Shown here one piece after another: positions 5,050-35,137 of a stretch of DNA of 64,000 nucleotides. How positions within the stretch are numbered: the first letter of the stretch is position 1; every line of letters begins with the position of its first letter. The notes beneath the pieces are model-generated. The model did not search any database and was not told where the DNA came from. It saw only the letters and a list, made by a program, of their open reading frames with translations. A program made the position numbers and the translations under genes. This stretch comes from Gallionella sp. (GTDB lineage Bacteria; Pseudomonadota; Gammaproteobacteria; Burkholderiales; Gallionellaceae): positions 1-64,000 of the forward strand of contig JAQTWT010000007.1 in the NCBI GenBank assembly GCA_028689145.1. The letters run 5' to 3'.

Positions 5050-6969
5050 ATGGAAATACTGCAAAAGGATGTGATCACACCGCAGCAGGCGGGTACCTTG
5101 CACGGGCTGTTCGTGGAGCGCGTGCGCCGCTCGCCGGACAAAGTTGCCTACCACTATTTTCAGGATAATGCCTGGCGCGACATTACCTGGAGGGAGATGC
5201 TCGGCGAAGTGGCGCGCTGGCAGGCGGCGCTGGCCGGCTTGGCATTGCAGCGCGGCGACCGGGTGGCGATCATGCTGCGCAACTGCCCATACTGGATGAT
5301 GTTCGACCAGGCGGCGATGTCGCTCGGGCTGGTGGTGGTGCCGCTGTACACCGTGGACAGGCCGGACAATATCGCCTACATCGCCAACGATGCGGATGTA
5401 AAAGTGCTGCTGTTTGAAACCGACGAACAATGGCAGGCATTGCGCACGGTGCGCGACCAGATCGGCGGGGTGAAACTTTTCATCAGTATTGAGAACGTGC
5501 GCGACAGCAGCGAACCGCGCCTGCAAGCGATGGCCGAATTTCTGCCTGCCACCGCGAAGTTGCAATCGGGTAACCCTCTCCCCAACCCTCTCCCGATGCC
5601 CTCTCCTCAATCCTCTCCCGCAAGCGGGAGAGGAGGCGAACGAGAAAGGCAATCTTCAACCCCGGCGGGCGAGGGAGCAAACGCACCGCCGCACGGAATT
5701 TGTTCTAACGAACTGGCCAGCATCATTTACACCTCCGGCACCACCGGAAAACCGAAAGGCGTGATGCTGAGCCACGCCAATATGCTGACCAATGCGTATG
5801 CCTGTATGGGTTTTTTTCCGGTCAACGAAAGCGATACCTTTTTGTCATTTTTGCCGCTGTCGCATACTTTCGAGCGCACCGTGGGCTATTACCTGTCGGT
5901 GATGGCCGGAGCCAAGGTGGCTTTTGCGCGCTCCGTCGCGCAGTTGTCGGGGGATTTGCATATCGTCCGCCCGACCATTCTGATTTCGGTGCCGCGCATT
6001 TATGAACGTGTGTATAGCGCGATATGCACCAGTCTGGACGAGGGCTTGCCGTTGAAACGCAAGCTGTTCAATCTGGCGGTGAATATCGGCTGGGCGCGCT
6101 TTTTGAACCGGCAGGGGCGTGGCAAATGGCAATTATCATTCCTGCTCTGGCCGTTGTTGAACCTGCTGGTCGCGCAAAAAGTCCTCAACCATCTCGGCGG
6201 CAGGTTGCGTTTCGCCCTCAGTGGCGGCGCGGCATTGTCGCCGGAAATTTCGCGGGTGTTCATCGGGCTTGGGCTGCCGGTGATACAGGGCTACGGGTTG
6301 ACCGAGACCAGCCCGGTGATTAGCGGCAACCATCCGGAAAACAATTTCCCCGACAGCGTCGGCCAGCCGGTGCGCGATGTGCAGGTGAAACTGGGCGAGC
6401 TGAACGCACTGCTGGTAAGGGGGCCGAATGTGATGATGGGCTACTGGAACAACCCCGAGGCGACCAATGCGATCATCGACGCAGACGGCTGGCTGAACAC
6501 CGGCGATGTGGTGCGCCTCAGCGAAACCGGGCATATCTACATTACCGGCCGCACCAAGGAGATCATCGTCATGTCGAACGGCGAGAAGATCCCTCCGAGC
6601 GATATGGAACTGGCAATCTTGCACGATCCCCTGTTCGATCAGGTCATGATTATCGGCGAAGGTCGTCCCTATCTGGTGGCGCTGGTGGTGCTCAACGCGG
6701 AAGCGTGGAAATCCTTTGCCAGAGAAGTCGGGGTACGCGCCGATATGCCGGAAGCGCTGCATGATAGCCGCGTGGAAGGCAAGGTACTGAAACGGATCGC
6801 GCTCAGTCTGCGCGGTTTTCCCGGCTATGCGCATGTGCGCCGCGTGCTGCTGATGCAGGAACCGTGGACCATGGAAAGCGGTATGCTGACACCCACTCTG
6901 AAACTTAAACGCAGCAAAGTGGTGGGACAATATACGCCGCAGATCAACCATCTTTATGAGAGGCATTAG
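5050..6969 (+). CDS. long-chain acyl-CoA synthetase (AMP-forming) with in-frame repeat insertion
   Basis: This is an ANL-superfamily ligase that activates fatty acids to acyl-CoA with ATP and CoA, feeding FadE. The P-loop YTSGTTGKPKG, the QGYGLTETSP motif and the NTGDVV/GRTKEIIVMSNGEKI motifs are all present. I chose ATG 5050 because AAGAGGG lies 6-10 nt upstream; a GTG at 5035 is in frame but has no better site. The product (639 aa) is somewhat longer than the usual about 600. The excess is a Pro/Gly/Arg-rich tract (about residues 175-214) encoded by a palindromic repeat directly before the P-loop motif. The gene lies between fadE and a thioesterase gene. Confidence 0.93.
   Translation: MEILQKDVITPQQAGTLHGLFVERVRRSPDKVAYHYFQDNAWRDITWREMLGEVARWQAALAGLALQRGDRVAIMLRNCPYWMMFDQAAMSLGLVVVPLYTVDRPDNIAYIANDADVKVLLFETDEQWQALRTVRDQIGGVKLFISIENVRDSSEPRLQAMAEFLPATAKLQSGNPLPNPLPMPSPQSSPASGRGGERERQSSTPAGEGANAPPHGICSNELASIIYTSGTTGKPKGVMLSHANMLTNAYACMGFFPVNESDTFLSFLPLSHTFERTVGYYLSVMAGAKVAFARSVAQLSGDLHIVRPTILISVPRIYERVYSAICTSLDEGLPLKRKLFNLAVNIGWARFLNRQGRGKWQLSFLLWPLLNLLVAQKVLNHLGGRLRFALSGGAALSPEISRVFIGLGLPVIQGYGLTETSPVISGNHPENNFPDSVGQPVRDVQVKLGELNALLVRGPNVMMGYWNNPEATNAIIDADGWLNTGDVVRLSETGHIYITGRTKEIIVMSNGEKIPPSDMELAILHDPLFDQVMIIGEGRPYLVALVVLNAEAWKSFAREVGVRADMPEALHDSRVEGKVLKRIALSLRGFPGYAHVRRVLLMQEPWTMESGMLTPTLKLKRSKVVGQYTPQINHLYERH
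5572..5690. repeat. palindromic repeat read in frame inside the acyl-CoA synthetase gene
   Basis: A CCCTCTCCC-rich run leads into TCTCCCGCAAGCGGGAGA (a perfect stem), then GAACGAGAAAGGCAATCTTCAA. It encodes [17 protein letters not shown] and further residues with no counterpart in the ligase fold. The same core and flank occur inside lpxK (26328-26432, opposite genomic strand, same sense relative to the gene) and in shorter form inside the ATP-grasp-like gene (16226-16292). Confidence 0.85.
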
Positions 6970-6971
6970 TC

Positions 6972-7379
6972 ATGGATGAAAACCAGCCGCATACCACCAC
7001 CCTGCCGCAACGCGAACCGACCCTGCGCGTGGTCGCGATGCCTTCAGACTGCAACTATACCGGCGATGTGTTCGGCGGCTGGATCATGGGTCAGGTGGAT
7101 ATTGCCGGTAGTATTCCGGCGCTGCATCGCGCCAAGGGCAGGGTGGTGACGGTGGCGGTGAATTCATTCATCTTCAAGCAGCCGCTGTTCATGGGCGATA
7201 TGGTGAGTTTCTATACGCAGCTCATCAAAGTGGGGCGCACCTCGATCACCGTCAACGTCGAGGTTTATGCGCAACGCGATCCGCAGTGGCGGACTTGCGT
7301 AAAAGTCACCGAAGCGACACTGACCTATGTCGCGGTGGACGATAACCGCAAGCCGCGCGTCGTGCCGCCTGCCGATTGA
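6972..7379 (+). CDS. acyl-CoA thioesterase, YciA-like hotdog fold
   Basis: The 135-residue product matches short hotdog-fold acyl-CoA thioesterases of the YciA/BACH type. It begins with LRVVAMPSDCNYTGDVFGGWIMGQVDIAG, in which the N/D-containing segment forms the active site. It continues with the conserved FKQPLFMGDMVSFY strand. Such enzymes hydrolyse acyl-CoA to free acid and CoA and can relieve CoA sequestration during fatty-acid breakdown. The ATG lies 2 nt after the ligase stop codon, with AGAGGCATTAGTC upstream, so the two genes are probably co-translated. Confidence 0.9.
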   Translation: MDENQPHTTTLPQREPTLRVVAMPSDCNYTGDVFGGWIMGQVDIAGSIPALHRAKGRVVTVAVNSFIFKQPLFMGDMVSFYTQLIKVGRTSITVNVEVYAQRDPQWRTCVKVTEATLTYVAVDDNRKPRVVPPAD

Positions 7380-7434
7380 GGCAATGCGCGCAGCTTGTCG
7401 TGATTTTTAAAATTTTAGAGGGCCGTCGTCATGG

Positions 7435-8658
7435 TTGACGCGTGCCGGGATTGATATTGCAATGTTGTTTGATAATCACACACTGGTATTTTCTTTGATG
7501 CTGATCAGCGCCATGATGGCGCTGAGCCTGGCTGTCGTGTCATGGGGGCGGGAGCACGACAGCCTGAAAAAATGGGCGGGCGCGCTGGCGCTGGAGTCCG
7601 TGGCTTTTTTGCTGATCGATGCCCGCGGTACGATTCCCGATGGAATTTCCATCGTGTTTCCCGCCGTGCTGACGGTTGCCGCACAGGCATTGAAGCTCGC
7701 CGCGATTTATGAATACCGCGACCTGCCTTGGCCGCGCTGGCAATGCCTGTTGCCGGTGGGACTGGTTATCCTGATTTTTATCGCATTGCCGTATGACGAT
7801 TTTCGCGGCCGCTTGGTCTACGGCAGCCTGATCTACGGGGCGCAAATGCTGCTGATCCTGCAAATTTTGCGCAGCGATACCGAGTCGCGTGCCGGGCGTG
7901 CATGGTGGTTGCTGTTCGGTGCGACGCTGGCCATCCTGCCGTTTGTGGCAATGCGCGCGATTGCCGCGTTCTTCAGGCTCGTCGAGTTTGCCACGATCGA
8001 ATCAAGCGTTGCGCCCAACCCGGTGCAGATGGCGATCTTTATCGGTTTCATCGCGTTTGGCATATTGGGTTCGCTGGGCTTCATCCTGATGGTCAAGGAG
8101 CGCGCCGACCGCGTGATCCGCTCGCTGGCGATGATCGATTCGCTGACCGGCGTGTTCAACCGCCGTGCCTTCATGGAGCGCGCCGATAAGGAATACGCCA
8201 TCGCCCAGCGCAACAAGACTCCCCTCGCGCTGCTGATGATCGACATCGATTTTTTCAAGCGCATCAACGACCAATTCGGCCATCCGACCGGGGATGATGT
8301 GCTCACCGATGTGGCGCACCTGCTCGAATCGCGGCTGCGCAAGCAGGATACGCTGGGGCGCTACGGCGGCGAGGAGTTTTGCGTGCTGCTGCCCGCCACC
8401 GATGATGCCGGTGCCATGGCGGTGGCCGAAACACTGCGCCATACCGTGGAAAATACCCCGCTGGCAACCGAACGCAAGAGCATCTCCGCCACCGTCAGTA
8501 TCGGCGTGACCGTTTGTCCGGCATCCTGTGATAGCTGCAACATCGGGTTCGGCAAGCTGCTGGAAGATGCCGATGCGGCGCTCTATCAGGCCAAACATGA
8601 CGGGCGTAACCGCACGGTAATGTTGCAGTTCGGCTGCCGGAATACCGCGGCAGCCTGA
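7435..8658 (+). CDS. membrane-bound diguanylate cyclase (GGDEF)
   Basis: This enzyme makes cyclic di-GMP from two GTP. The N-terminal 215 residues hold about six hydrophobic segments. The C-terminal GGDEF domain begins near DSLTGVFNRRAF and contains the active-site GGEEF. The product-inhibition I-site RKQD lies five residues upstream of it, so the enzyme should be both active and feedback-inhibited. The start is uncertain. TTG 7435 and ATG 7462 are in frame. AGAGGG at 7418-7423 is best spaced for ATG 7431, which opens only a seven-codon ORF in another frame. The gene lies unexpectedly within fatty-acid genes. Confidence 0.92.
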   Translation: MTRAGIDIAMLFDNHTLVFSLMLISAMMALSLAVVSWGREHDSLKKWAGALALESVAFLLIDARGTIPDGISIVFPAVLTVAAQALKLAAIYEYRDLPWPRWQCLLPVGLVILIFIALPYDDFRGRLVYGSLIYGAQMLLILQILRSDTESRAGRAWWLLFGATLAILPFVAMRAIAAFFRLVEFATIESSVAPNPVQMAIFIGFIAFGILGSLGFILMVKERADRVIRSLAMIDSLTGVFNRRAFMERADKEYAIAQRNKTPLALLMIDIDFFKRINDQFGHPTGDDVLTDVAHLLESRLRKQDTLGRYGGEEFCVLLPATDDAGAMAVAETLRHTVENTPLATERKSISATVSIGVTVCPASCDSCNIGFGKLLEDADAALYQAKHDGRNRTVMLQFGCRNTAAA

Positions 8659-8676
8659 ATCATTTGAGGAGCAAAA

Positions 8677-11217
8677 ATGAGCGAAAATTTCCATATCCGC
8701 AAGGTTGCGGTGCTTGGTGCCGGGGTGATGGGCGCGCAGATCGCGGCGCATCTGGTCAATGCCAATGTCGAGACGCTGCTGTTCGAGTTGCCGGCCAAAG
8801 AAGGTGAACCGAACGGCAACGTGAACAAGGCGCTGGCAGGGCTGAAGAAACTCGATCCCGCACCCGCTGCCAGTCCCGCCAAACTTACTTTCATCCGGCC
8901 CGCCAACTACGAACAGCATCTCGACCTGTTGCGCGACTGCGATCTGGTGATCGAGGCGATCGCCGAGCGTATCGACTGGAAATCCGGCCTGTACCAGAAA
9001 GTCGCGCCCTATCTCGGCGAACGCACCATCTTCGCCAGCAACACCTCCGGCTTGTCGATCAATAAGCTTGCCGAAGCCTTTCCGGAAAATCTGCGCCACC
9101 GCTTCTGCGGCATCCACTTTTTCAACCCGCCGCGCTATATGCATCTGGTCGAGCTGATCCCCTGTGCGGGAACCGACGCGGCATTGCTCAACCAGCTGGA
9201 AATTTTTCTGGTATCCGGTCTGGGCAAGGGCGTGGTGCGTGCCAAGGATACGCCGAACTTCATTGCCAACCGCATCGGCGTGTTCTCGATGCTGGCGACC
9301 AAACACCATGCAGCCGCGTTCAACCTCGGCTTCGACACCGTGGACGCGCTGACCGGGCGCTATCTCGGCCGTCCCAAGAGCGCCACCTTCCGCACGCTGG
9401 ACGTGGTCGGGCTGGACGTGTTCGCGCACGTGGTCAATACCATGCGCGAGAACCTGACCGACGACCCGTGGCACAAGCATTTCGAATTGCCGAACTGGTT
9501 TAACCGGCTGGTCGATCAGGGCGCGCTGGGGCAAAAGGCCAAGCGCGGCATCTACCAGAAGATCGGCAGGGAAATCCATGTACTGGATTTGCACACCGAC
9601 ACCTATAAGCTTTCCGAAGGCAAGGTGGACGACGACGTGAAGGCGATCCTGCGCGAGCGCGACTGGGCCAAAAAACTTCAGGGGTTGCGCGAATGTTCGC
9701 ATCCGCAGGCGCAGTTTCTGTGGGCGACGTTCCGCGACGTGTTCCACTATTGCGCGCTGCAACTGGAGCATATCGCCGACAACGCGCGCGACCTCGATCT
9801 GGCGGTGCGCTGGGGCTTTGGCTGGGACAGCGGCCCGTTCGAAATTTGGCAGGCGGCAGGCTGGCAGAAAGTGGTCGGCTGGATCGAGGACGAGCGCATA
9901 CAGGGCAAGACCATGTCCGAGGCCAGACTGCCGAAATGGGCGGTGGAGCCGGCGCGCAACGGCGTCCACACCCCGCTGGGCTCATACTCCCCTCGCCCCT
10001 CAGTGGGAGAGGGGCGGGGGGAGAGGGGTGGTTCAGGCAGCTATCAGCAACGCTCCCAACTTCCCGTCTACCAGCGCCAAGAATTCCCCGACCGCTTGCT
10101 CGGCGAAGAAGCAAGTTACAGCGAAACCATCTTTGAGACCGACGACGTGCGCCTGTGGCACAGCGGCGACGACATCGCCGTCCTGAGTTTCAAGACCAAG
10201 ATGCACGCGATCAGCAACGAAGTGCTGGACGGTATCCTGCGCGCAGTGGACGAGGCCGAGGCGCATTTCCATGCGCTGATCATCTGGCAAACCGAAGCGC
10301 CGTTCTCTGCCGGTGCGCACCTGCTGCAACTGATGCAGGGCGTGCAGGAAAGCAGTGATGCGTCGCCCGCCGGATTGTTCGATAAACTCAAGGGCGCGGC
10401 GCAGCGCGTCAAATACACTGTCGCGGGCGGCGGCGGGCTGGGTGAGATCGTCGATGCTGCCACCGGAAACGTGCCGCATGTCGAAGAAGTAGTCGCCAAA
10501 TTTCAGCAGGTCTCGTTGCGCCTGCGCTATGCGCAAGTGCCGACCATCGCGGCGGTGTACGGCCTCGCGCTCGGCGGCGGCTGCGAATTCTCGATCCACT
10601 GCACGCGCATCGTTGCCGCGCTGGAAACCTACATCGGCCTGGTCGAAGTCGGTGTCGGCGTATTGCCCGCCGGCGGCGGCTGCAAGGAAATGACGCTGCG
10701 CGCGGCACAGGAGGCCCAGCGTCTTTCCAGTGATGGGCGCGGCGACATCTTCCCGCACCTGCGCCGCTACTTCCAGCAAATCGCCATGGGCGAAGTCGCC
10801 AAGAGCGCCGAACTGGCGCGCGACATGGGCTACCTGAAGCCGTCCGACCGCATCGTACTGAACCAGTATGAGCTGCTGCATGTCGCCAAACAGGAAGCGC
10901 TGGCGCTCACCGCCACCGAATACCGCCCGCCGCTCGCGCCGCGCCAGATCCCCGTCGCCGGACGCCCCGGCATCGCCACCCTCAAAGCCGCGATGATCAA
11001 CCTGCTCGAAGGCGGCTTCATCTCCGAGCACGACTACAACATCGGCTGCCGCATCGCCGAAACCATGTGCGGCGGCGATGTGGAAGCGGGCAGCATGGTG
11101 GACGAGCAATGGCTGCTCGATTTGGAGCGCAAGAATTTCATGGAATTGCTGGCGATGCAGAAGACCCGCGATCGGGTGGAGTTCATGCTGAAGAACGGGA
11201 AGCCGCTGCGGAATTAA
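8677..11217 (+). CDS. bifunctional 3-hydroxyacyl-CoA dehydrogenase / enoyl-CoA hydratase
   Basis: This fused beta-oxidation enzyme hydrates enoyl-CoA and oxidises the 3-hydroxyacyl-CoA. The dehydrogenase half comes first, with the NAD-binding VLGAGVMGAQIAAHL at residues 10-24 and the HFFNPPRYMHLVELIP motif near 148. The crotonase half is C-terminal (from about 490) with the oxyanion-hole segment AAVYGLALGGGCEF. This order is the reverse of E. coli FadB. GAGGAGCAAAA gives a strong ribosome site. The 846-residue length includes a repeat-encoded stretch in the interdomain linker (about residues 437-451). The thiolase partner lies 3.6 kb downstream beyond an islet. Confidence 0.94.
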   Translation: MSENFHIRKVAVLGAGVMGAQIAAHLVNANVETLLFELPAKEGEPNGNVNKALAGLKKLDPAPAASPAKLTFIRPANYEQHLDLLRDCDLVIEAIAERIDWKSGLYQKVAPYLGERTIFASNTSGLSINKLAEAFPENLRHRFCGIHFFNPPRYMHLVELIPCAGTDAALLNQLEIFLVSGLGKGVVRAKDTPNFIANRIGVFSMLATKHHAAAFNLGFDTVDALTGRYLGRPKSATFRTLDVVGLDVFAHVVNTMRENLTDDPWHKHFELPNWFNRLVDQGALGQKAKRGIYQKIGREIHVLDLHTDTYKLSEGKVDDDVKAILRERDWAKKLQGLRECSHPQAQFLWATFRDVFHYCALQLEHIADNARDLDLAVRWGFGWDSGPFEIWQAAGWQKVVGWIEDERIQGKTMSEARLPKWAVEPARNGVHTPLGSYSPRPSVGEGRGERGGSGSYQQRSQLPVYQRQEFPDRLLGEEASYSETIFETDDVRLWHSGDDIAVLSFKTKMHAISNEVLDGILRAVDEAEAHFHALIIWQTEAPFSAGAHLLQLMQGVQESSDASPAGLFDKLKGAAQRVKYTVAGGGGLGEIVDAATGNVPHVEEVVAKFQQVSLRLRYAQVPTIAAVYGLALGGGCEFSIHCTRIVAALETYIGLVEVGVGVLPAGGGCKEMTLRAAQEAQRLSSDGRGDIFPHLRRYFQQIAMGEVAKSAELARDMGYLKPSDRIVLNQYELLHVAKQEALALTATEYRPPLAPRQIPVAGRPGIATLKAAMINLLEGGFISEHDYNIGCRIAETMCGGDVEAGSMVDEQWLLDLERKNFMELLAMQKTRDRVEFMLKNGKPLRN
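9985..10030. repeat. CTC/GAG-rich palindromic element inside the beta-oxidation fusion gene
   Basis: CTCCCCTCGCCCCTC is followed by GTGGGAGAGGGGCGGGGGGAGAGG, so the pyrimidine-rich arm is complementary to the purine-rich arm. It encodes SPRPSVGEGRGERGG in frame, within the linker between the dehydrogenase and crotonase domains. It is related in composition to the CTCTCCC family elsewhere in the window but is a distinct variant. Confidence 0.65.
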
Positions 11218-11244
11218 AATTGTAATTACAGATTATTCGTCTCC

Positions 11245-13224: not shown

Positions 13225-13230
13225 ACCAAC

Positions 13231-14787: not shown

Positions 14788-15987
<1,200 letters not shown>

Positions 15988-15997
15988 GGTGTCTGGA

Positions 15998-17248
15998 ATG
16001 GCCACCGAACTGACAACCACGCTGGATCGCGCCGCGTTGCAGAGTGCAATGCTGGCGCAGGGCGAGGCGTGGCATAGCTTGGTGACCGAGCGCTGCCCGC
16101 ATCTGTTCGCCGCTTATCCGGTGTTAATCACGGCTGCGCAGATGCGCCAGATGCGCGAGGTGGTCGGGGCGGTGGAGCGGGTGGTGGGGCTGGCGAAGTG
16201 GATGGATGCTCCTCTCACGCAAGGAAACCCTCTCTCTAACTCTCTCCCGCAAGCGGGAGAAAGGACAAACGAGAAAGGCAATCTTCAATCCCTTGGCGTG
16301 TTCTTTGGTTACGACTTCCACCTGAACAGCGACGGCGCGCATCTGATCGAGATCAACAGCAACGCGGGAGGTGGATTTTTGAATGCACTGCTGCTCGACA
16401 GCCAGCGCGCTGCCGGTTTGCCCGGCCTAACGACCGCAGTCGAAAACCTCGAACAAACTTTCCTTGAGATGTTCCGCAACGAGTGGCTGCTGGCGCGCGG
16501 CGATATGCCGCTCAACAGCATCGCTATCGTGGACGAGCAGCCCGAGGCGCAGTATCTGTATCCCGAATTCCTGTTGGCAAAGAACTGGTTCGAGCGTGCT
16601 GGGATTGCGGCTTTTATCGCCGATCCATCTGCGCTGCAGGCGCGCGATGGCGGTCTATATCTGGGGGAGCAGCAGATCGATCTGGTATACAACCGCTTGA
16701 CGGATTTTTCGTTGCAGCAGCATCCGGTATTGCGTCAGGCGTATCTGGATGGCAGCGTGGTGCTGACACCCGATCCGGCGCACTATGCGTGCTATGCCGA
16801 CAAGCGCAATCTGGCACGGCTGACTGATGCGGAAACATTGCATAGGCTCGGCGCAAGCGAAGCCGACATCGCCGTGTTGCTGGCGGGCATTCCGCAGACC
16901 CGGCTGGTTGAGGCGGCAGACCATGAGCGCTGGTGGCAGGAGCGCAAACAATGGTTCTTCAAACCGGACAGCGGTTACGGCAGCAAGGGCGCATATCGCG
17001 GCGAGAAGCTGACCAAGCGCGTGTTCGACGAGATCATGCAGGGCGGTTATGTCGCGCAGCGCATGGCCGCGCCGGGCGAACTCGCGGTGCGCGCAGACGA
17101 TGCCGAAGCGGTTGCGCTGAAGTACGATGTGCGCTGCTATGTTTACGACGGGCGGGTGCAGCTGGTAGCGGCGCGCCTCTATCAGGGCCAGACCACCAAT
17201 TTCCGCACGCCGGGGGGCGGATTTGCGCCGGTGCGTGTTGTAGAATGA
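15998..17248 (+). CDS. conserved protein with ATP-grasp-like features
   Basis: I do not recognise a named enzyme in this 416-residue product. EINSNAGGGFLNALLLD (about residue 120) and WFFKPDSGYGSKGAYRGEKL (about residue 320) resemble metal/phosphate-binding parts of ATP-grasp ligases such as glutathione-synthase relatives. ATG 15998 was chosen because AGGG lies at 15986-15989. GTG 15989 is an in-frame alternative, and the frame also runs back into the thiolase gene. A repeat-encoded insert (about residues 77-97, NPLSNSLPQAGER) lies before GVFFGYDFHL. The gene follows the thiolase at 10 nt. Confidence 0.6.
   Translation: MATELTTTLDRAALQSAMLAQGEAWHSLVTERCPHLFAAYPVLITAAQMRQMREVVGAVERVVGLAKWMDAPLTQGNPLSNSLPQAGERTNEKGNLQSLGVFFGYDFHLNSDGAHLIEINSNAGGGFLNALLLDSQRAAGLPGLTTAVENLEQTFLEMFRNEWLLARGDMPLNSIAIVDEQPEAQYLYPEFLLAKNWFERAGIAAFIADPSALQARDGGLYLGEQQIDLVYNRLTDFSLQQHPVLRQAYLDGSVVLTPDPAHYACYADKRNLARLTDAETLHRLGASEADIAVLLAGIPQTRLVEAADHERWWQERKQWFFKPDSGYGSKGAYRGEKLTKRVFDEIMQGGYVAQRMAAPGELAVRADDAEAVALKYDVRCYVYDGRVQLVAARLYQGQTTNFRTPGGGFAPVRVVE
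16226..16292. repeat. palindromic repeat read in frame inside the ATP-grasp-like gene
   Basis: CTCTCCCGCAAGCGGGAGA forms a stem, followed by AACGAGAAAGGCAATCTTCAA, the same downstream flank as in the acyl-CoA synthetase copy at 5572-5690. Here it is translated in a different frame (SLPQAGERTNEKGNLQS), showing that the DNA, not one peptide, is what is shared. Confidence 0.85.
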
Positions 17249-21742: not shown

Positions 21743-21819
21743 GTGGCTGGTGGTGAGGCACGAACCCCAGCATGATTGCATCGAAAAATGCTGGGGTTCG
21801 TGCCTCACCACCAGCCTAC
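21743..21819. repeat. long GTAG/CTAC-type palindrome, copy 2
   Basis: This 77-bp inverted repeat, with arms GGCTGGTGGTGAGGCACG and GCCTCACCACCAGCCTAC, is nearly identical in its arms to the element at 967-1045. The loop differs. It fills the spacer between the Fe-S gene and the geranylgeranyl-reductase-like gene. Confidence 0.88.
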
Positions 21820-24065: not shown

Positions 24066-25561
<1,496 letters not shown>

Positions 25562-25680: not shown

Positions 25681-25683
25681 TTT

Positions 25684-25872
25684 TCATTTGATACTTTCTG
25701 CTTCTTCCGGAGTGAGCTTGCGTGCTTCGTCGACCAGCATCACCGGAATGTCATCTTCGATCTTGAAGGCCAGACGGTCGGCTTTGCAGATCAGTTCCTG
25801 CGCGGCTTTCTGGTAGACCAGCGGGGATTTGCACAGCGGGCAAACGAGAATATCAAGCAGTTTTGCGTCCAT
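25684..25872 (-). CDS. Trm112 family protein (UPF0434, YcaR-like)
   Basis: This is a 62-residue zinc-ribbon-type protein: [17 protein letters not shown] at the start and [20 protein letters not shown] in the middle. Homologues of Trm112 activate methyltransferases in eukaryotes; the bacterial role is not settled. Its ATG lies inside the 3' end of lpxK (20-nt overlap), the standard lpxK-ycaR-kdsB arrangement. Confidence 0.93.
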
Positions 25873-27040
25873 GAGGGGTGATCTTTCGCAGTATGTGGTC
25901 GATCAGGTTCGGGTCGATTTCGGCGTCCACGCGCAACACCCAGTATCGGGCATCGGCGAATGCAGCGCATTTTACCGCATCTTTTTCGGTCAGGAGTATC
26001 GCATCGCAGTCGCTGAAAGTCAGATCGGTATCGCGGTAGGGGTGATGGTCGGGGAAAGGGTGCGGGGTAAAGGGAATGCCGAGCGTCCGCAGATGCTTGA
26101 AGTAGCGTTGCGGATGGCCGATTCCGGCGACGGCGTGATTATTGGTGGCGTGAAAATGATCGGCACTGACTATTTGGGATGAATCGAGCAGATTGTGGAA
26201 AACTTTCCCCGACAGACGCATAGCGTACTGGCCTATCGTAGGGGCGAGATTCATCGCGCCCTTCTTGACTAGATCAGATGCCGAAGTCTCGTCGCCAGTA
26301 AATATAAATTCGCGCAGCGATTCGTTTGCTCCCTCGCCCGCAGGGTTTGAAAAATGCTTTTCTCGATCGCCTCCTCGCCCGCTTGCGGGAGAGGATTGAG
26401 GAGAGGGCATCGGGAGAGGGTTGGGGAGAGGGAAACGGGCTTGCCCGTTTATTACCACGGCATCCACGCTTCGCAAGCGCGACAGCGGCTCGCGCAGCGG
26501 CCCGGCGGGAAGCATCAGGCCGTTGCCAAAGCCGCGTACACCGTCGATGACCGCGACTTCGACATCGCGCTGCAAGCGGTAATGCTGCAAGCCGTCGTCG
26601 CACAGCACGACATCGCATTGCGGGTGGGTTTGCAGGGCGGCCCGCGCGGCGGCGGCACGGTCTTGTCCGATCCACACAGGGCAAAGCTTGCGCCGTGCCA
26701 TCAGTAGCGGTTCGTCGCCCACCTGCTGTGCGTCGCTATGCGTATTGACCTGTTGCGGCTGTTGCGCCGCACCGCCGTAGCCGCGGCTGACGATCAGCGG
26801 ATGCCAGCCGCGTCCGGCAAGCTGCTGTGCCAGCGCAAGTGTGAGCGGGGTTTTGCCGGTTCCGCCGACGCTGATATTGCCGACCACGATGACCGGCACG
26901 GGCAATTTATCGCCGGACAAAATACCGCCGCGATACAGCGCGCGACGCAATGCCGCCAGCAGGCGGAACAGCAAACTGATAGGGAACAGAATCAGGTGTA
27001 GCGGGGTGATGCGGTGCCAGTAATGTTGCAGCCCATGCAC
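25853..27040 (-). CDS. lpxK: tetraacyldisaccharide 4'-kinase with two in-frame repeat insertions
   Basis: This inner-membrane kinase phosphorylates the lipid A disaccharide at the 4' position. The P-loop [14 protein letters not shown] is at about 52-65, an N-terminal membrane helix at 17-35, and the C-terminal [10 protein letters not shown] motif is intact. The usual length is 320-345; here it is 395. The excess lies between NGQARF and the region before GKVFHNLL. One repeat encodes [17 protein letters not shown] and onward; a second, GTAG-type REP encodes [10 protein letters not shown]. Because lpxK is normally essential, the insertions are presumably tolerated. Confidence 0.94.
26238..26261. 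repeat. GTAG-headed REP element inside lpxK
   Basis: GTAGGGGCGAGATTCATCGCGCCC begins with GTAG and folds as GGGCG/CGCCC. The same unit occurs as an inverted pair in the spacer at 54462-54533. In lpxK it is read on the opposite strand as GAMNLAPTI. Confidence 0.8.
26328..26432. repeat. palindromic repeat read in frame inside lpxK
   Basis: On the lpxK strand it runs CCCTCTCCCCAACCCTCTCC, then ATCCTCTCCCGCAAGCGGGC, then a GCGATCGAGAAAAGC tail. It is collinear with the acyl-CoA synthetase element at 5572-5690 and read in the same frame, so two unrelated proteins share [17 protein letters not shown] and a downstream PAGEGAN. Confidence 0.88.
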
Positions 27041-27053
27041 GTTGGGGCTTCCG

Positions 27054-27470
27054 TTACTTTTGATTTTGCGTGGTGAAGGTAATGCGCCCGAACCCCGCCA
27101 ACCGTGCCGCTTCCATCACGTTGATTACCGATTGGTGCGGTGCTTTGGCATCGGCGCTGATGACGATGGTGGGGTCGGTCTGCTCACCAGCGGCAGTTTT
27201 CAGCGAATCCGCCAACGCCGCTATGCCGGTATAAGGCACGCTCTGACTGTTGATGGCATAGTGCTCGGAGGTATCCACCGCGATATTGATTGGTTTGTCG
27301 GCCGCTACGGCCGCTTCCCCGCCGCCTTGCGGCAGGTTGATTTGCAACTCGGAAAACTTGGCGTAGCTGGTGGTCACCATCAGGAAGATCAGGATCACCA
27401 GCAGCACGTCTATCATCGGAATCAGGTTGATTTCCGGTTCCTCACGAGTGCGTCCGCGCTGAAAGTCCAT
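27054..27470 (-). CDS. exbD: ExbD/TolR family biopolymer transport protein
   Basis: This is a 138-residue inner-membrane protein with a short cytosolic N-terminus. A single membrane helix (EINLIPMIDVLLVILIFLMV, residues 12-32) carries the proton-path Asp in PMID. A periplasmic domain follows. It partners ExbB in using proton-motive force to energise TonB-dependent or Tol-type outer-membrane processes. It starts 3 nt after exbB and is followed by lpxK. No tonB is adjacent, so the energised partner is elsewhere. Confidence 0.95.
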   Translation of the reverse strand: MDFQRGRTREEPEINLIPMIDVLLVILIFLMVTTSYAKFSELQINLPQGGGEAAVAADKPINIAVDTSEHYAINSQSVPYTGIAALADSLKTAAGEQTDPTIVISADAKAPHQSVINVMEAARLAGFGRITFTTQNQK

Positions 27471-27473
27471 CGC

Positions 27474-28082: not shown

Positions 28083-28476
28083 GCGGATTCTCCAAATGTG
28101 CTTAAATTTCCAAATGCGCCTAAACAGGATGCGCACAAATTAGATGTGTTAAAAAATTTAAAGGTGGCTAAAATTTTTCAGAGCGCAACTGTATCGTGTC
28201 GCGCCGAGTTGAGCAACATTTCCCGTGAGTCATCAGGATTTACTTTAGCTATATTTGGCTAACTCGGCATTTGGAAAGAGTATTTTTATTTACCCACAAA
28301 ATCTGTGGATAACTTTGTGGATGATTGCTGTGGATAGTCGGATAAAGTGGCGTGGAATAAGGATTTTTGTTGCCTTGCCTATTTTTTGTGTGGTTATTAA
28401 ATTTATTAAAAACAATAGGTTATTGTAAGTTGTCGGTTTTGTTACGGGGTGTCGCTGCAAGAACTGGCGAATTTCC
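28083..28476. promoter_or_regulatory. AT-rich divergent intergenic region with four DnaA-box-like 9-mers
   Basis: No gene is visible in this spacer between exbB (minus) and xseA (plus). At 28290-28337 it holds TTACCCACA (28290-28298), a perfect DnaA box TGTGGATAA (28304-28312), TGTGGATGA (28316-28324) and TGTGGATAG (28329-28337). The last three share orientation with 12-13 bp periodicity. AT-rich stretches flank them (28140-28170 and 28385-28425). It may be a DnaA titration or regulatory site. Origin function is possible but unproven, as no dnaA, dnaN or gidA is nearby. Confidence 0.6.
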
Positions 28477-28506
28477 TTGATGTGTGGATTATTTGGACTT
28501 GTCAAT

Positions 28507-29853: not shown

Positions 29854-29871
29854 GCTGTTTTAGAAAAGGCC

Positions 29872-30142
29872 GTTCGCCCTGAGCTTGTCGAAGGGTGCTT
29901 GAACGTAGATTAAAAACAAATCAACACCGCCGGGGGTAGCCCGGCAGCTAGTCACTTTTTCTTGCTTCGCCAAAGAAAAAGTAACCAAAAAGAAGGCGCC
30001 CCCAGTTTGCCGCCCCTGCGGGGTTCCCTGCGTTGCTCGGCTGGTCAGGCGGCTGCGGAACTCGCGCTACGCGCTCAAACATAACCAGCGACTTGGCTGG
30101 CGTCGTTTGCCAGCTTAGTCGAATGGCTAGTTGTTTCATCAG
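29872..30142. repeat. dispersed repeat block between xseA and the integron
   Basis: There are three parts. CGTTCGCCCTGAGCTTGTCG with AAGGG (29874-29898) also occurs at 35161-35185. A 29940-30060 block has the inverted segments ACTTTTTCTTGCTTCGCCAA and AAAGAAAAAGTAACC. At 30113-30142, GCTTAGTC-N2-ATGGCTAGTT recurs at 36953. No gene is credible here. The block borders the left end of the cassette array and may have replaced its terminal attC site. Confidence 0.65.
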
Positions 30143-30238
30143 TCCTCGCCGACATCCCCTGACCCGCCTGCGCTACTTGGCGGCGCTCAGTGGAGGAAAA
30201 GCAAAAAACTGAAAGTCGAAAGTCGTAGAGTGTTAACA

Positions 30239-30511
30239 ATGAAAAACAAATACACAATTAACGATTACACAGAATTAGGCATCCCGAGTATAGAGGTGCA
30301 TGGGGAGTGTTTTCACTACCGAGATTTGTATGAATTGGTTGGACGCAATCAATTTATGACCACCTTCAACCTAAAGGAGGGTAGTTCCTCGCAAAGTCAG
30401 TACGGCAGAGAAGTACTTGGGGTTGCTTACTATAGTTTTAGTCAAACTCAAGAGCTTGAGGAGCCAGTAAGGCGGCTATTATTGAAGATGCTCTCATGGA
30501 TGACTCAATGA
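30239..30511 (+). CDS. hypothetical protein, putative cassette gene in reverse orientation
   Basis: This is a 90-residue protein of unknown function, starting MKNKYTINDYTELGIPSIEVHGECFHYRDLY. It has no signal peptide or membrane segment. I prefer the ATG at 30239 over an upstream in-frame ATG because the latter runs through repeat sequence. Its stop (30509-30511) ends two bases before an attC core, so the gene lies inside the array but points toward the integrase, opposite to the other cassettes. Its composition is AT-richer than that of xseA. The left attC of this cassette is not visible. Confidence 0.6.
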   Translation: MKNKYTINDYTELGIPSIEVHGECFHYRDLYELVGRNQFMTTFNLKEGSSSQSQYGREVLGVAYYSFSQTQELEEPVRRLLLKMLSWMTQ

Positions 30512-30512
30512 C

Positions 30513-30575
30513 GCCCAACGTAAAAGTAAGGGGCTGCGCACTTTTACGCAGTCCCGCTTGACTGCCGGGTTGGGC
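30513..30575 (-). mobile_element. integron attC site 3
   Basis: The 63-bp imperfect palindrome is bounded by GCCCAAC (30513-30519) and GTTGGGC (30569-30575), matching RYYYAAC and GTTRRRY. The inner stem is GGGGCTGCG...CGCAGTCCC around a TTTTA loop. Length and core spacing equal those of the other two sites. Confidence 0.85.
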
Positions 30576-30576
30576 A

Positions 30577-30981
30577 TCACTTCAACGAAGCCCGGCACTC
30601 AGAAGATGTGCGGTAAATATTCCCGGTTTTAGGGGAGATGAACACGCCGTAATCTAGGTCGTAGTTTTTTGGGTGAGAGTGTCCGGGAACTATAGCTACG
30701 CAGCCAAAGTACAGCACAGCGTACAACTCGTTATTGATATTCGAGTTGTGAAAGCCGACTACCGTATCTGAGCCGCCGACATCCTTAATGCCTATTTCAA
30801 GCACCTTCCCGAATTTGTATGTGCAATAGCGCCCATTGTTAGGAATTTCTTCACATTTTATTGCATCAGTCGCACGTTGAAACAGGCGGTTTTGAAGCGA
30901 CTGCTGTGCGAAGGCTGACCCGGCGGTAAGCAACAGTGCAAGTGTAGGAATGAGAACGCGCAGGATGATTTTAATGTGCAT
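30577..30981 (-). CDS. hypothetical secreted protein, integron cassette 3
   Basis: The 134-residue product has a classical signal peptide (IKIILRVLIPTLALLLTAGSAFAQQ, cleavage near residue 25). Four further cysteines lie in the mature part (CEE, YCTY, FGCV, ECRA), suggesting periplasmic disulfides. No family is recognised. Its stop abuts attC 3 and its start lies 27 nt from attC 2, with CAGGAAC upstream of the ATG, so it forms a complete cassette reading away from the integrase. Confidence 0.75.
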   Translation of the reverse strand: MHIKIILRVLIPTLALLLTAGSAFAQQSLQNRLFQRATDAIKCEEIPNNGRYCTYKFGKVLEIGIKDVGGSDTVVGFHNSNINNELYAVLYFGCVAIVPGHSHPKNYDLDYGVFISPKTGNIYRTSSECRASLK

Positions 30982-31007
30982 TTGTGAGTTCCTGTTCAGA
31001 TGATTAT

Positions 31008-31070
31008 GCCCAACGTGGAGCTAAGCCGCCGCCCCGCTTTTGGGCGGTCGGCTTGAGCGTAGGGTTAGAA
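31008..31070 (-). mobile_element. integron attC site 2
   Basis: This 63-bp palindrome runs from GCCCAAC (31008-31014) to GTTAGAA (31064-31070). The inner stem is GCCGCCGCCCCGC/GGGCGGTCGGC around CTTTT. The outer cores differ on the two sides (GTTGGGC versus TTCTAAC), as expected after independent cassette insertions. Confidence 0.85.
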
Positions 31071-31071
31071 A

Positions 31072-31512
31072 TCATGGGTTATTACCTCGACTCTTTAAAT
31101 CAATTTCATCTTGTAGTCGTCGCGCATCTTCCATGCGCAGCACTTTTCGCATGGTGGTTTTATAGAGAAGTACGGAAAAACCGGCAGCAACAAGACATGT
31201 GGGAGCGAAGACAGCAAGAACGATGGCAGGCCAAGTATGAAGATACTGAGGAAGGGCTGCGAGAGTGGTTGATGACGCTAGGGCTGCCGCAACTTGAAGA
31301 GCAAACGCGGTTAGAAGCAGCAGCGCGCCAACTACGTATTGTGATCTCTGAGCGGCTAATGAAGATGCCACGGGTTCACTGAAGTCCCAGAACGGAGTGG
31401 CTTGGATCAAGATTTTCGCGGACGTATTGGAGGTATTGCCAATGCAGAAAAAGATTGCCGAAGCAAAACCGACTGATGCGGCGACAAGTGTAAGTACAAG
31501 TTGCTCGGTCAT
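31072..31512 (-). CDS. hypothetical membrane protein, integron cassette 2
   Basis: The 146-residue product has about four hydrophobic segments (residues 5-25, 55-75, 85-105, and a shorter one near 115). The basic C-terminal tail is KTTMRKVLRMEDARRLQDEI. No family is recognised. ATG 31512 is chosen because it follows the attC core GTTAGAA by six bases, a usual cassette geometry; longer frames would run through attC. The stop lies one base from attC 2. Confidence 0.72.
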   Translation of the reverse strand: MTEQLVLTLVAASVGFASAIFFCIGNTSNTSAKILIQATPFWDFSEPVASSLAAQRSQYVVGALLLLTAFALQVAAALASSTTLAALPQYLHTWPAIVLAVFAPTCLVAAGFSVLLYKTTMRKVLRMEDARRLQDEIDLKSRGNNP

Positions 31513-31518
31513 AATGAT

Positions 31519-31582
31519 TTCTAACGTAAAGTTGAGGGGCTGCCCCGCTTTTGGGCAGTCCCTCTCGAACGACAGGTTAGAG
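31519..31582 (-). mobile_element. integron attC site 1
   Basis: This 64-bp palindrome is bounded by TTCTAAC (31519-31525) and GTTAGAG (31576-31582). Read on the minus strand, CTCTAAC is followed by TGTCGTTCGAG, a GGGACTGCCC/GGGGCAGCCCC hairpin, CTCAACTTTAC and GTTAGAA. The inner boxes pair with one unpaired extra base, a hallmark of attC folded on the bottom strand. Confidence 0.88.
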
Positions 31583-31600
31583 GTGGATAAATGAGTGACA

Positions 31601-31936
31601 TTAGTGGGTGGAAGAGGATACAGGGATATGAGCGAGCACCGGATAATCTTCAACTGCGAAGGTGCGGCATAGTTCTGGCGGGCATGGGTCGTCGAAAAGT
31701 TCCTTGGGTACTGTCAGTCCCAAACGAATCAGTCCATCTGGCATTACGGCAGGGTAGAATTTCTCCAGCAGCGCTATTCTTTCTGGGGTGCGCTTGCCTG
31801 TGGAAGGCGCTTCTAGCCACGATAAAACAAGCCAGTGGGTATCTTTATGAAGAATAACCATCGCCTGCATATCTTCTTGGTCGTTCCAAACATCCAACCC
31901 AAACACGGCCTTGCCAACAATAAATGGTTCATTCAT
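31601..31936 (-). CDS. hypothetical protein, integron cassette 1 (attI-proximal)
   Basis: The 111-residue product starts MNEPFIVGKAVFGLDVWNDQEDMQAM and has no signal peptide or recognised domain. ATG 31936 is chosen because it lies just after the attI/cassette junction GTTAGAGG; the open frame continues upstream only through attI. As the first cassette it should be the best expressed and most recently acquired. Confidence 0.72.
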   Translation of the reverse strand: MNEPFIVGKAVFGLDVWNDQEDMQAMVILHKDTHWLVLSWLEAPSTGKRTPERIALLEKFYPAVMPDGLIRLGLTVPKELFDDPCPPELCRTFAVEDYPVLAHIPVSSSTH

Positions 31937-31944
31937 AGCGTAAC

Positions 31945-32049
31945 CTCTAACGTAATGTAGACACCCTAAAAAGCGCCGGGAAAGGCACCTTTGAGGTGTA
32001 TAATCTGGCATCCGTTCTGCAATGCCTTGTTTGTATTGGGAGAGAAAAT
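31945..32049. mobile_element. integron attI region and integrase promoter
   Basis: On the minus strand the recombination core GTTAGAG (31945-31951) separates attI from cassette 1. The 98 bases up to the integrase start hold a TATAAT box (31999-32004) for rightward transcription of intI. No convincing cognate -35 box, no outward cassette promoter and no LexA box could be identified by eye. Confidence 0.65.
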
Positions 32050-33045
32050 ATGGCACACCCTAATTTCCCCGATAAAAACACCACGATAAATCCTCCTAGA
32101 TTACTCAATCAAGTGCGCGATAAATTGCGCGTGAAGCACTACAGTATCCGCACTGAACAATCTTATGTGGGCTGGATTAAACGCTTTATTTTCTTTCATG
32201 GCAAGCGTCACCCGAAAGACATGGGGGCGCGGGATGTGGAGGATTTCCTTACCCATCTGGCGGTGGTTGGCAAGGTTTCAGCTTCCACGCAGAATCAAGC
32301 CAAATCGGCGTTGCTGTTTCTTTACCGCGAAGTGTTGGAAATTCAATTGCCTTGGTTGGATAACATTACTCAGGCAAAAACGCCCAAACGTTTACCCGTG
32401 GTGTTGACGGTGAATGAGGTGCAGTCTTTGTTGTCTCATTTGACCGGAACGTATGCGCTGATCGCATCGTTGTTGTACGGCGGGGGGATGCGTCTGATGG
32501 AGGCGGTGCGCTTGCGGGTGAAAGATGTGGATTTTGCTCGGCATGAAATCGTGGTGCGCGAAGGTAAGGGTTTTAAGGATCGGGTGACAATGCTGCCGGA
32601 GGCTGTGGTTGCATCGCTCAAGGCTCACTTGATGAAGGCGAAAACTTTGCATACCGAGGATTTGGCGCAGGGTTTTGGCGAGGTGTATTTGCCTTTCGCA
32701 CTGGACAAAAAATATCCGAACGCCGGGCGCGAGTGGGGCTGGCAGTATGTGTTTCCTTCGAAGAATCTGTCGGTTGATCCGCGCTCCGACAAAACGCGCC
32801 GCCATCATGTTGATGAGAAGGGTGTGCAGCGCGCCGTGAAGCAGGCGGTTCGCGATGCCGAGTTGAGCAAGCCCGCAACACCGCACACTTTGCGCCATTC
32901 TTTTGCCACGCATCTGTTGCAAAACGGCTACGACATACGCACCGTGCAGGAGTTGCTGGGGCATTCGGATGTTTCCACCACGATGATTTACACTCACGTG
33001 CTGAACAAGGGCGGCAGGGGTGTGGTGAGTCCGTTAGACAGGTAA
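32050..33045 (+). CDS. intI: integron integrase IntI
   Basis: This tyrosine recombinase inserts and excises attC-bearing cassettes at attI. The 331-residue product is complete, with catalytic R148 ([11 protein letters not shown]), H279-x-x-R282 (HTLRH), H305 (GHSD) and nucleophile Y314 (MIYTHV). The integron-specific extra segment, [21 protein letters not shown] (about residues 215-237), is absent from XerC/D and confirms the family. ATG 32050 is preceded by GGGAGAG; an upstream GTG would lie inside the promoter. The array extends leftward from its 5' side. dppD-like ATPase sequence follows at 4 nt. Confidence 0.96.
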
Positions 33046-33049
33046 GTCA

Positions 33050-35137
33050 ATGAGCGAAATTCTTTCAGTCGATTCTTTAACCGCTGCGTTGCACAGCGGC
33101 GTTGCCATCGTCGATGGCATTTCGTTCGGCATCGAACAGGGCGAGACTTTTGCGCTGCTCGGCGAATCGGGTTGCGGCAAGTCGATGACGGCGCTGTCGC
33201 TGCTGCGGTTGTTGCCGGACGGGGTGAAGCATGCGGGCGGCACGGCGCGACTGGATGGCGTGGAGTTGTTTGGCCTGCGCGAACGCGAGATGCGCGCGGT
33301 GCGCGGCGGGATTGCGGCGATGATTTTTCAGGAGCCTGGGCTGAGTCTGAATCCGGTGCTGACGGTGGGGCAGCAGATCGCCGAGGTGCTGGAGTTGCAT
33401 GGTAAATCACCCTCTCCCCCAGCCCCTCTCCCGCAAGCGGGAGAGGGGAGATATAAAATCATGCAACGCTGCATCGAGTTGCTCGAGCAGGTCGGTATAC
33501 CCGATGCGGCGCGGCGCGTGACGGAGTATCCGTTCCAGCTTTCCGGCGGGATGAAGCAGCGCGTGATGATCGCGATGGCGTTGGCCGGGCAACCGAAATT
33601 ATTGATCGCCGACGAGCCGACCACCGCGCTGGACGTGACGATACAGGCGCAGGTGTTGCAACTGTTGCGCGACACGCAACAGGACAGCGCCATGTCGCTG
33701 CTGCTGATTACCCACGATCTCGGCGTGGTGGCGGAAATGGCGCACCGGGTCGGCGTGATGTATGCCGGGCAGATCGTCGAGCAGGCCAGCCGCGCGCAGT
33801 TGTTTGCCATGCCGCTGCATCCCTACACGCAAAAATTGTTTGCCGCGTTGCCCGATGCGGCACGGCGCAACCAGCCGCTGGCCGCTATTCCCGGCAATGT
33901 GCCGCCGCCGGGCAGCATCGCGCGGGGTTGTCGCTTTGCGCCGCGCTGCGACAGGGCGTGGGCGTTGTGCGGCGAGCAAACACCGCAGTGGACGGAGCTG
34001 GGGGAAGGGCAGGGGGTTAGGTGCCACCTTTATCAGGATCGGGGAGCGACGAGCGAAGAGCGTGTAGGATGGGTGGAGCGCAGCGATACCCATCAATCAC
34101 TCAATATTGGCGATGGGTATCGCTGCGCTCCACCCATCCTACCTGATACGAAGCACGCGCTCCTGCAGGTTGAAAAACTGCAAGTCCACTTCCCGATCCG
34201 CAAAGGTATTTTGCAGCGCGTGGTCGGGCAGGTGAAGGCGGTGGACGGGGTGTCGCTGGAGATACCGCAGGGGCGCACGCTGGCACTGGTGGGTGAATCG
34301 GGGTGCGGCAAGACCACGCTGGGCAAGGCGCTGCTGCAATTGATTGCGCCCACGGCGGGCAGCGTGCGATTTGCCGGGCAGGAACTGACCGGGCTGGCGG
34401 CGCGCGAATTGCGCACGCGGCGCGCGGCGATGCAGATGGTGTTTCAGGACCCTTACGCTTCGCTGAATCCGAAAATGCGCATCGCGGAAATTCTCGAAGA
34501 GGGCATGGTCGCGCTGAATAGCCCCTCTCCCGCTTGCGGGAGAGGGGTTGGGGAGAGGGAATTTCGCCAGGCGTATCTCGACGGTCTGCTGGAAAAAACC
34601 GGGCTGGATCGCGCCGCCAAATGGCGTTATCCGCATGAATTCTCCGGCGGGCAGCGCCAGCGCGTTGCCATCGCGCGCGCGCTGGCGGTGTCGCCGCAAC
34701 TGCTGATTTGCGACGAGCCGACCAGCGCGCTGGATGTGTCGGTGCAGGCGCAGATTCTGAATCTGCTGAAGTCGCTGCAACAGGAATTGAATCTGAGTTA
34801 TCTGTTTATCACCCACAACCTCGCGGTGGTGGAATATCTCGCGCACGAGGTATGCGTGATGTATCTCGGGCGCATCGTCGAGCGCGGCACGGCGGAGGAG
34901 GTGTTGCGCGCGCCGAAACATCCTTACACCCGGGCCTTGTTGTCCGCCGTGCCGCGCATCGACGGCAAGGGCCGGGAGCGCATCAGGCTGGAGGGCGATC
35001 TGCCGTCACCGGCCAATCCTCCGCCGGGCTGTCATTTCGCGCCGCGCTGCGCGCAGGCCGAAGATCGGTGCCGCACCGGCTATCCGCCCGCGACCGACTG
35101 TTCGGCGACGCATGTGGTGCATTGTTATTTGTTTTAG
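33050..35137 (+). CDS. fused oligopeptide/dipeptide-type ABC transporter ATPase with three in-frame repeat insertions
   Basis: Two ABC ATPase domains are fused as in YejF/DppD-DppF fusions, energising peptide import. Domain 1 has Walker A GESGCGKSMT (about residue 38), signature QLSGGMKQR and Walker B LLIADEPTTALD, ending in the Cys-rich oligopeptide-family tail. Domain 2 has GESGCGKTTL, EFSGGQRQR and LLICDEPTSALD. At 695 residues it is about 150 longer than usual. Three repeat-derived stretches account for much of this: SPSPPAPLPQAGEG (~121), GWVERSDTH...RCAPPILPD (~340-365) and SPSPACGRGVGERE (~492). No permease genes are nearby. Confidence 0.93.
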   Translation: MSEILSVDSLTAALHSGVAIVDGISFGIEQGETFALLGESGCGKSMTALSLLRLLPDGVKHAGGTARLDGVELFGLREREMRAVRGGIAAMIFQEPGLSLNPVLTVGQQIAEVLELHGKSPSPPAPLPQAGEGRYKIMQRCIELLEQVGIPDAARRVTEYPFQLSGGMKQRVMIAMALAGQPKLLIADEPTTALDVTIQAQVLQLLRDTQQDSAMSLLLITHDLGVVAEMAHRVGVMYAGQIVEQASRAQLFAMPLHPYTQKLFAALPDAARRNQPLAAIPGNVPPPGSIARGCRFAPRCDRAWALCGEQTPQWTELGEGQGVRCHLYQDRGATSEERVGWVERSDTHQSLNIGDGYRCAPPILPDTKHALLQVEKLQVHFPIRKGILQRVVGQVKAVDGVSLEIPQGRTLALVGESGCGKTTLGKALLQLIAPTAGSVRFAGQELTGLAARELRTRRAAMQMVFQDPYASLNPKMRIAEILEEGMVALNSPSPACGRGVGEREFRQAYLDGLLEKTGLDRAAKWRYPHEFSGGQRQRVAIARALAVSPQLLICDEPTSALDVSVQAQILNLLKSLQQELNLSYLFITHNLAVVEYLAHEVCVMYLGRIVERGTAEEVLRAPKHPYTRALLSAVPRIDGKGRERIRLEGDLPSPANPPPGCHFAPRCAQAEDRCRTGYPPATDCSATHVVHCYLF
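33409..33450. repeat. CTCTCCCGCAAGCGGGAGAG palindrome inside ABC ATPase domain 1
   Basis: CCCTCTCCCCCAGCCCCTCT leads into a perfect CTCTCCCGC/GCGGGAGAG stem. It is read as SPSPPAPLPQAGEG, the same frame as in the ATP-grasp-like gene, and lies between LELHG and the helix containing MQRCIELL. Confidence 0.85.
34064..34142. repeat. 79-bp GTAG/CTAC palindrome in the linker between the two ABC domains
   Basis: GTAGGATGGGTGGAGCGCAG with CGATACCC, a short loop, then the exact complement ending CCACCCATCCTAC. It is translated as VGWVERSDTH through YRCAPPILP. It forms the same kind of GTAG-to-CTAC inverted unit as the spacer elements at 967 and 21743, but with different arms. Confidence 0.9.
34520..34562. 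repeat. palindrome inside ABC ATPase domain 2, opposite strand orientation
   Basis: CCCCTCTCCCGCTTGCGGGA followed by GAGGGGTTGGGGAGAGGGA is the reverse-complement orientation of the element at 33409-33450. It is read as SPSPACGRGVGERE without a stop codon. Confidence 0.85.

Follow-up and report, generated by a model that had tools for sequence, protein, structure and literature searches.

Unrelated palindromic repeats occupy the same protein loops in different species of a single betaproteobacterial genus, a point that goes beyond the earlier note on this DNA, in which palindromes were reported to lie in frame within at least six genes. In our assessment these sequences are most likely selfish or passive palindromes that are kept where an insert with an open frame meets a permissive, disordered loop, and we place the probability of the whole explanation, i.e., spread of the repeats, loss, survival in permissive loops, and reuse of those loops, at about 0.85.

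The window, by which we mean the entire stretch of 64,000 nucleotides analyzed here, belongs to a genome of 2.74 Mb (23 contigs, completeness 96.7%). The nearest named relatives of its KdsB protein are Gallionella metagenome-assembled genomes with identities of 81–83%, and the source is therefore a Gallionella-like betaproteobacterium. Palindromic segments are present inside all six of the unrelated window genes in which they had been reported; the six host ORFs are uninterrupted, and each carries one or more in-frame, hairpin-forming segments:

5035–6969, + strand, acyl-CoA synthetase gene (ACS; Pfam/NCBIfam)
5572–5691, + strand, element A copy with an extra left arm and a tail, in the acyl-CoA synthetase gene
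8677–11217, + strand, 3HCDH/ECH fusion gene (fadB-type; Pfam/NCBIfam)
9985–10030, + strand, element A variant, 3HCDH/ECH fusion gene, linker
15959–17248, + strand, ATP-grasp-like gene (open ORF)
16226–16290, + strand, element A copy, in the ATP-grasp-like gene
24722–25561, − strand, kdsB (Pfam/NCBIfam KdsB)
24986–25057, − strand, two-hairpin insert bound to kdsB (folding z −1.78)
25853–27040, − strand, lpxK (Pfam/NCBIfam LpxK)
26238–26264, − strand, short palindrome of the GGGGCG-GATTCATCG-CGCCC family, in the lpxK insert, close to its 3′ end
26300–26446, − strand, element A plus a AACGAATCGCTGCGCGA-type tail, in lpxK
33050–35137, + strand, double ABC ATPase gene (Pfam/NCBIfam)
33408–33450, + strand, element A copy, ABC gene, first ATPase half
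34064–34142, + strand, GTAG-type REP dimer with 31-nt arms, in the variable linker between the ATPase halves of the ABC gene
34520–34560, + strand, element A copy, ABC gene, second ATPase half

The "ATP-grasp-like" protein has no match among Pfam and NCBIfam models. The suggestion that several element families are involved is supported, as the segments comprise element A, the GTAG type, and smaller palindromes.

Element A, CTCTCCCGC-N2-GCGGGAGAG, is about 40–50 bp long. A search of the source genome with CTCTCCCGC-N2-GCGGGAGA, allowing up to two mismatches, returned 96 forward and 94 reverse matches and none in the reversed control; because the element is palindromic and both strands mostly match the same places, this corresponds to about 95 copies. 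With at most one mismatch there are 61 forward matches in the source genome and from 0 to 66 in each of 36 genomes of the same genus, and of the 24 genomes from the order's other genera, a single one reaches 42 matches, with 0 or 1 in each of the rest. Copies are also present outside genes. By eye, the listed copies start with a CCCTCTCCC-like sequence and are without a GTAG or CGTC tag at their ends. The six A-type window segments that were folded have z values of −1.25 to −4.83, and given values as weak as −1.25, single copies are not all remarkable when taken alone. The element contains no stop in any of the six frames, a property shared by 89 of 500 shuffles; the kdsB-bound segment (21 of 500 shuffles) and the CCCCCCTTTG repeat discussed below (205 of 500) are likewise stop-free in six frames, so that composition accounts for part of the open frames. 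Chance palindromes are ruled out by the controls of zero for both element A and the GTAG type, and since comparable inserts occur in many further genomes of the genus, we rejected an error of a single assembly.

Exact cores of element A number 32 in the source genome, 15 of which lie within conserved genes. The hosts of these cores are mfd, tilS, the acyl-CoA synthetase gene, the ATP-grasp-like gene, the ABC gene (twice), two CobQ/CobB-type amidotransferase genes, a cobD-type aminotransferase gene, a U32 peptidase gene, earP, an ABC permease gene, polA, mutS, and a VWA-domain gene. The count is based on Pfam domains and on relatives conserved on both sides of the core, with gene names read from Pfam hits, and leaves aside two cores in open frames upstream of the first domain (L013 and L162) and three in open frames that were not judged (L001, L004, and L016). 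Mismatched copies, among the sites listed, add AcrB-like, NuoCD, FolC-type, RlmI-type, and RNB genes as hosts; a histidine kinase and a TPS-domain protein join them on the basis of Pfam only. Each of the seven hosts that were checked was found at a single genomic site; MutS, PolA, NuoCD, and the FolC-type protein match there as two pieces that flank the insert. We accordingly reject the possibility that the host genes are broken paralogs beside an intact copy. There is likewise no second full match to lpxK among the genomic matches listed. A codon-bias score found coding-like flanks at 5 of 65 A sites and at 122 of 300 random places, a threshold too strict to use.

The dimer at 34064–34142 is the strongest palindrome, with arms that are 100% complementary and a folding z of −11.8, and it is open in only two of the six frames. 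GTAG-type matches number 24 forward and 24 reverse in the source genome, and the reversed control gave 0. The dimer carries GTAG at its end and has many copies, as expected of a GTAG-tagged REP, but its GTAG bases are paired in the dimer fold, whereas the available text of PMC3733652 describes them as unpaired in the REP unit. Two copies of a further GTAG-type palindrome lie between ORFs of the window, and the genome contains four matches to Y1 transposases (L031, L032, L033, and L034), two of which are given here with these copies:

967–1045, between ORFs, GTAG-type palindrome GTAGGCTGGTGGTGAG...
21745–21819, between ORFs, second copy of the palindrome at 967–1045
G000:C7:217693-221052 (L033), Y1-type transposase match with a GTAGCGTGCGCTGTGCGCACG palindrome on both sides
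G000:C7:227620-230949 (L034), Y1-type transposase match

Palindromes are found near three of the four matches: GTAG-like ones at L033 and L034, the latter adjoined on one side by a palindrome like that at 21745–21819, and another palindrome at L032. None was found at L031, which like L032 lies near a contig end. No element A core (up to four mismatches) and no member of the window's GTAG dimer family was seen at any of the four loci. From the literature, the mobilizer of the GTAG-type repeats is probably a RAYT (Y1) transposase. The window contains other repeats as well. Identical CCGTTCGCCCTGAGCTTGTCGAAGGG copies occur at 29870–29895 and 35159–35184, and this family also has members within two genes of relatives, the lpxK gene in G015 and the ABC gene in G036; 46719–46792 is a run of 12-bp direct repeats (TTGCCGGTGCGG-like); and 31000–31049 and 31511–31560 form a direct repeat pair of 50 nt with 74% identity.

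The reading frames together with alignment to relatives support in-frame insertion at loops or linkers, and each of the six window genes has at least one insert that some relatives are without. The genomes compared are assemblies, a good number of them fragmentary. At the acyl-CoA synthetase site, inserts of at least eight residues occur in 4 of 29 relatives. In the fadB-type fusion, three families between them fill the linker of 13 of 29 relatives, whereas 14 have it empty and in 2 it is cut off. Four relatives of the ATP-grasp-like gene divide into two without the insert (G020 and G026) and two with other A-type inserts (G016 and G007). The tail and end of the lpxK insert are built of smaller palindromes, among them 26238–26264 (folding z −3.2), whose family has 10 copies in the stretches of the source genome that were scanned; the whole segment measures 216 nt versus about 21 nt in most relatives. 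Among 29 LpxK relatives, inserts are large in L036, L037, and L044 and small in L063, the others having about seven to nine residues. Relatives of the ABC gene provide empty sites for the copies at 33408 and 34520, and here the claim of insertion stands; for the dimer at 34064 there is no clean empty site, since the linker between the halves differs in nearly every relative, with a like peptide in L141 (G005). For 16 further hosts, searched in seven relatives with three to seven aligned per host, at least one relative without the insert was read by eye for 15, the remaining case being PolA, for which no relative among those aligned is clearly empty. Inspection by eye of the filled and empty pairs (a comparison that excluded the source genome's own copies of MutS and TilS) revealed no target duplication, and the elements are palindromic, both points being relevant to classification as MITEs.

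The insert in kdsB behaves differently from what a dispersed repeat would imply, and this part of the earlier note is not borne out: the sequence is found essentially only at kdsB. It matches in 12 of 37 genomes, with nine matches at the kdsB place as judged by distance to lpxK and three weak ones (three mismatches) elsewhere, and the reversed control of the search also gave a few matches. One weak match with three mismatches (G036:C10:40400-40420) lies near lpxK and is probably another kdsB with an insert. The site is filled in 13 and empty in 16 of 29 relatives, and in other Betaproteobacteria the loop, measured at 76 of 80 loci, ranges from 3 to 27 residues. Named genomes, too, have lengthened KdsB loops that contain repeat-like peptides, namely a Sideroxydans MAG (L198) and Gallionella MAGs (L195 and L196), and the kdsB gene of G029 (L036) has a very long loop insert, with runs of 14 and 70 residues and several repeat-like parts. 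In an alignment to the solved KdsB structure (1vh1) the segment stands opposite gaps (the alignment of KdsB relatives used 27 of 30 rows). A structural model predicted from 42 sequences, the window protein plus 41 of the 80 loci, has a mean pLDDT of 88.4, with 203 of 279 residues at 90 or above; over residues 161–170, 171–180, and 181–190, the mean falls to 55, 50, and 50. The KdsB insert, the one that was modeled, has a pLDDT of about 50 and looks disordered, and the proposal that the repeats create new protein segments stands at the level of sequence and not as to function.

The linker of the fadB-type fusion is filled, depending on species, by element A, by GTAG-type repeats (G014, G026, and G033), or by a CCCCCCTTTG-N-AAAAGGGGGG repeat (G019 and G031, with 40 and 7 matches in the respective genomes). 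The first loop of the ABC gene accommodates element A, a GTTCGCCCTGAGCTTGTCGAA-type repeat, or a third palindrome; the KdsB loop contains element A, or element A with a nested element, alongside the kdsB-bound segment; and varied inserts occur at one place in MutS, the FolC-type protein, CobB, the RlmI-type protein, EarP, and RNB. Nested or chained repeats, in which a second unit lies inside element A or several units follow in a row, are seen in L038 and L042 (kdsB) and in L122 (fadB-type linker). When the five window proteins were aligned with their relatives, 44 of 56 inserts of at least eight amino acids in the relatives fell within seven columns of a window insert, zones that represent 3.9% of columns (relatives counted without correction for kinship). 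On a tree of 35 genomes, without G002 and G017 (few columns), the minimum numbers of state changes in the fadB-type linker are six for element A, three for the GTAG type, and two for the CCCCCCTTTG repeat, and elsewhere five for A-type inserts and eight for the bound segment in kdsB, seven for the ABC first loop, four for ACS, and four for lpxK. These counts include losses and use family labels assigned by eye, and two inserts were labeled as absent: one of 11 residues in ACS of G016 and one of 16 residues in the ABC first loop of G018. Presence of an A insert at a loop goes with more A copies in the genome (one-sided p of 0.005 for fadB, 0.014 for kdsB, and 0.049 for ABC, with 0.16 for the kdsB-bound segment as a control, all four uncorrected for kinship). 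The source genome and G016 have inserts in common in the AcrB-like, RNB, and FolC-type genes, and some same-loop inserts are thus shared by descent; a codon-position test of four shared inserts gave 6, 7, and 14 differences in 110 codons, with no clear sign of selection.

We propose that several short palindromic repeat families have probably spread through the genomes of the genus and that most insertions within genes would have been lost. The survivors would be those that kept the frame open and lay in an exposed loop or an interdomain linker, where they are presumably translated into probably disordered peptides that may be neutral or nearly so. Selection would in this way retain open-frame copies in permissive loops, and different families would come to lie in the same loops across species if tolerated loops are few and common to orthologs. 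A different account of loop reuse is that insertion is biased toward certain DNA or toward earlier inserts, through a preference of the repeats themselves or of their transposase, such that reuse reflects targeting more than selection. The nested and chained inserts of L038, L042, and L122 are in its favor, as are the insertions in the fadB-type linker, which by eye begin at nearly the same base; nevertheless, the families that share a loop are without sequence likeness and no common flanking motif was noticed at the in-gene sites, and we regard targeting as unlikely. The segments might instead be old conserved linkers or domains that were lost or changed in some species and were never mobile DNA. 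The restriction of the kdsB segment to kdsB in scattered species, which makes a single old gain with losses possible for this gene, would fit such a history, as would the variable KdsB loop of other Betaproteobacteria and the ABC linker that differs in nearly all relatives. The remaining segments belong to dispersed repeats with further copies outside genes, which contradicts it for element A and the GTAG type, and unrelated families lie at one loop in different species; as a general account it is very improbable.

An adaptive role, such as tuning of enzyme dynamics or service as mRNA hairpins within the gene, could be argued from the AcrB-like, RNB, and FolC-type inserts common to G016, which have outlasted a species split. 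We find it improbable given that empty orthologs are common, that unrelated sequences occupy the same loop, and that the shared inserts give no clear sign of codon selection. Hairpin "byp" elements of a yeast mitochondrion are reported to be skipped by ribosomes, and the inserts described here could in principle be untranslated in the same way, as some form strong hairpins and look mobile. This is exceedingly improbable: inserts in the hosts keep the frame open, and 29 A copies (30 listed, with one chance match in CobB excluded) are read as SPxxGR in 13 cases, LPxAGE in 13, and LSRxRE in 3, the charged frame being the rarer by simple count, although frame-breaking copies would be missed because hosts were found via open frames. 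Retention of selfish or passive palindromes in permissive loops is thus the reading that we prefer. More tentatively, and with somewhat less than even expectation, we suggest that across the genus several unrelated palindrome families serve as a constant mutagen that makes in-frame insertions in core enzymes. Turnover of mobile DNA, through repeated gain, replacement, and nesting in shared loops, would on this view determine how long the loops are in enzymes such as MutS, FolC, KdsB, and the fadB-type fusion; the repeats would then be the ordinary source of new loop sequence, possibly with some target preference.

These genomes amount to a natural insertion scan: across dozens of species one can read off where the loops of core enzymes admit foreign peptides. 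With them it becomes testable whether mobile DNA is a supplier of new protein loops or is merely tolerated. They also call for caution in annotation, as peptides such as SPASGRG or LPLAGEG may derive from repeats. Among the open-licence PubMed Central papers that the searches listed, judged by title and the start of the abstract, none concerned in-gene palindromes of Gallionella or reuse of the same loop by unrelated families. Intragenic REPs and the argument from tolerance of loops are already published, as the available text of PMC3733652 attests; the points added here are the untagged family, the number of core hosts, and the finding that unrelated families recur at shared loops throughout a genus.

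The closest parallel in mode of insertion is the Rickettsia palindromic elements (RPEs), which likewise comprise several families of in-frame palindromes in unrelated conserved genes; the likeness is one of mode. RPEs are about 105–150 bp long (Ogata 2000, 2002, as related in the accessible portions of the reviews PMC10969869 and PMC2229807), in contrast to the 40–50 bp of element A, which is stop-free in six frames and belongs to a betaproteobacterial genus in which reuse of the same loop by unrelated families is an added feature. The parallel drawn in the earlier note consequently holds for the mode of insertion, but going by the available text of PMC3733652 the present case is not the first outside Rickettsia. 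That text describes intragenic GTAG/CGTC REPs in Thauera, Opitutus, Xanthomonas, and other bacteria; one of the hosts is DNA polymerase I, and location in loops or linkers is proposed as the reason for their tolerance. The dimer at 34064–34142 is of the GTAG type, whereas element A has no GTAG/CGTC end tag. In the same text, recB of two Xanthomonas is the one species pair with REPs at about the same site, and other genes of recB's functional category are hit at different sites; by comparison, same-site reuse is found here at several loops across one genus. With respect to RAYT/REPtron systems, three of the four Y1 matches have palindromes nearby (L033 on either side), and no A core is present at any of the four. 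Small mobile sequences of enterobacteria and Yersinia, as far as the accessible text of PMC2229807 describes them, are also fused in frame to genes, some of them conserved, and are in this respect alike, but their units are longer (about 100–170 bp) and their sequences are other than those of the repeats described here.
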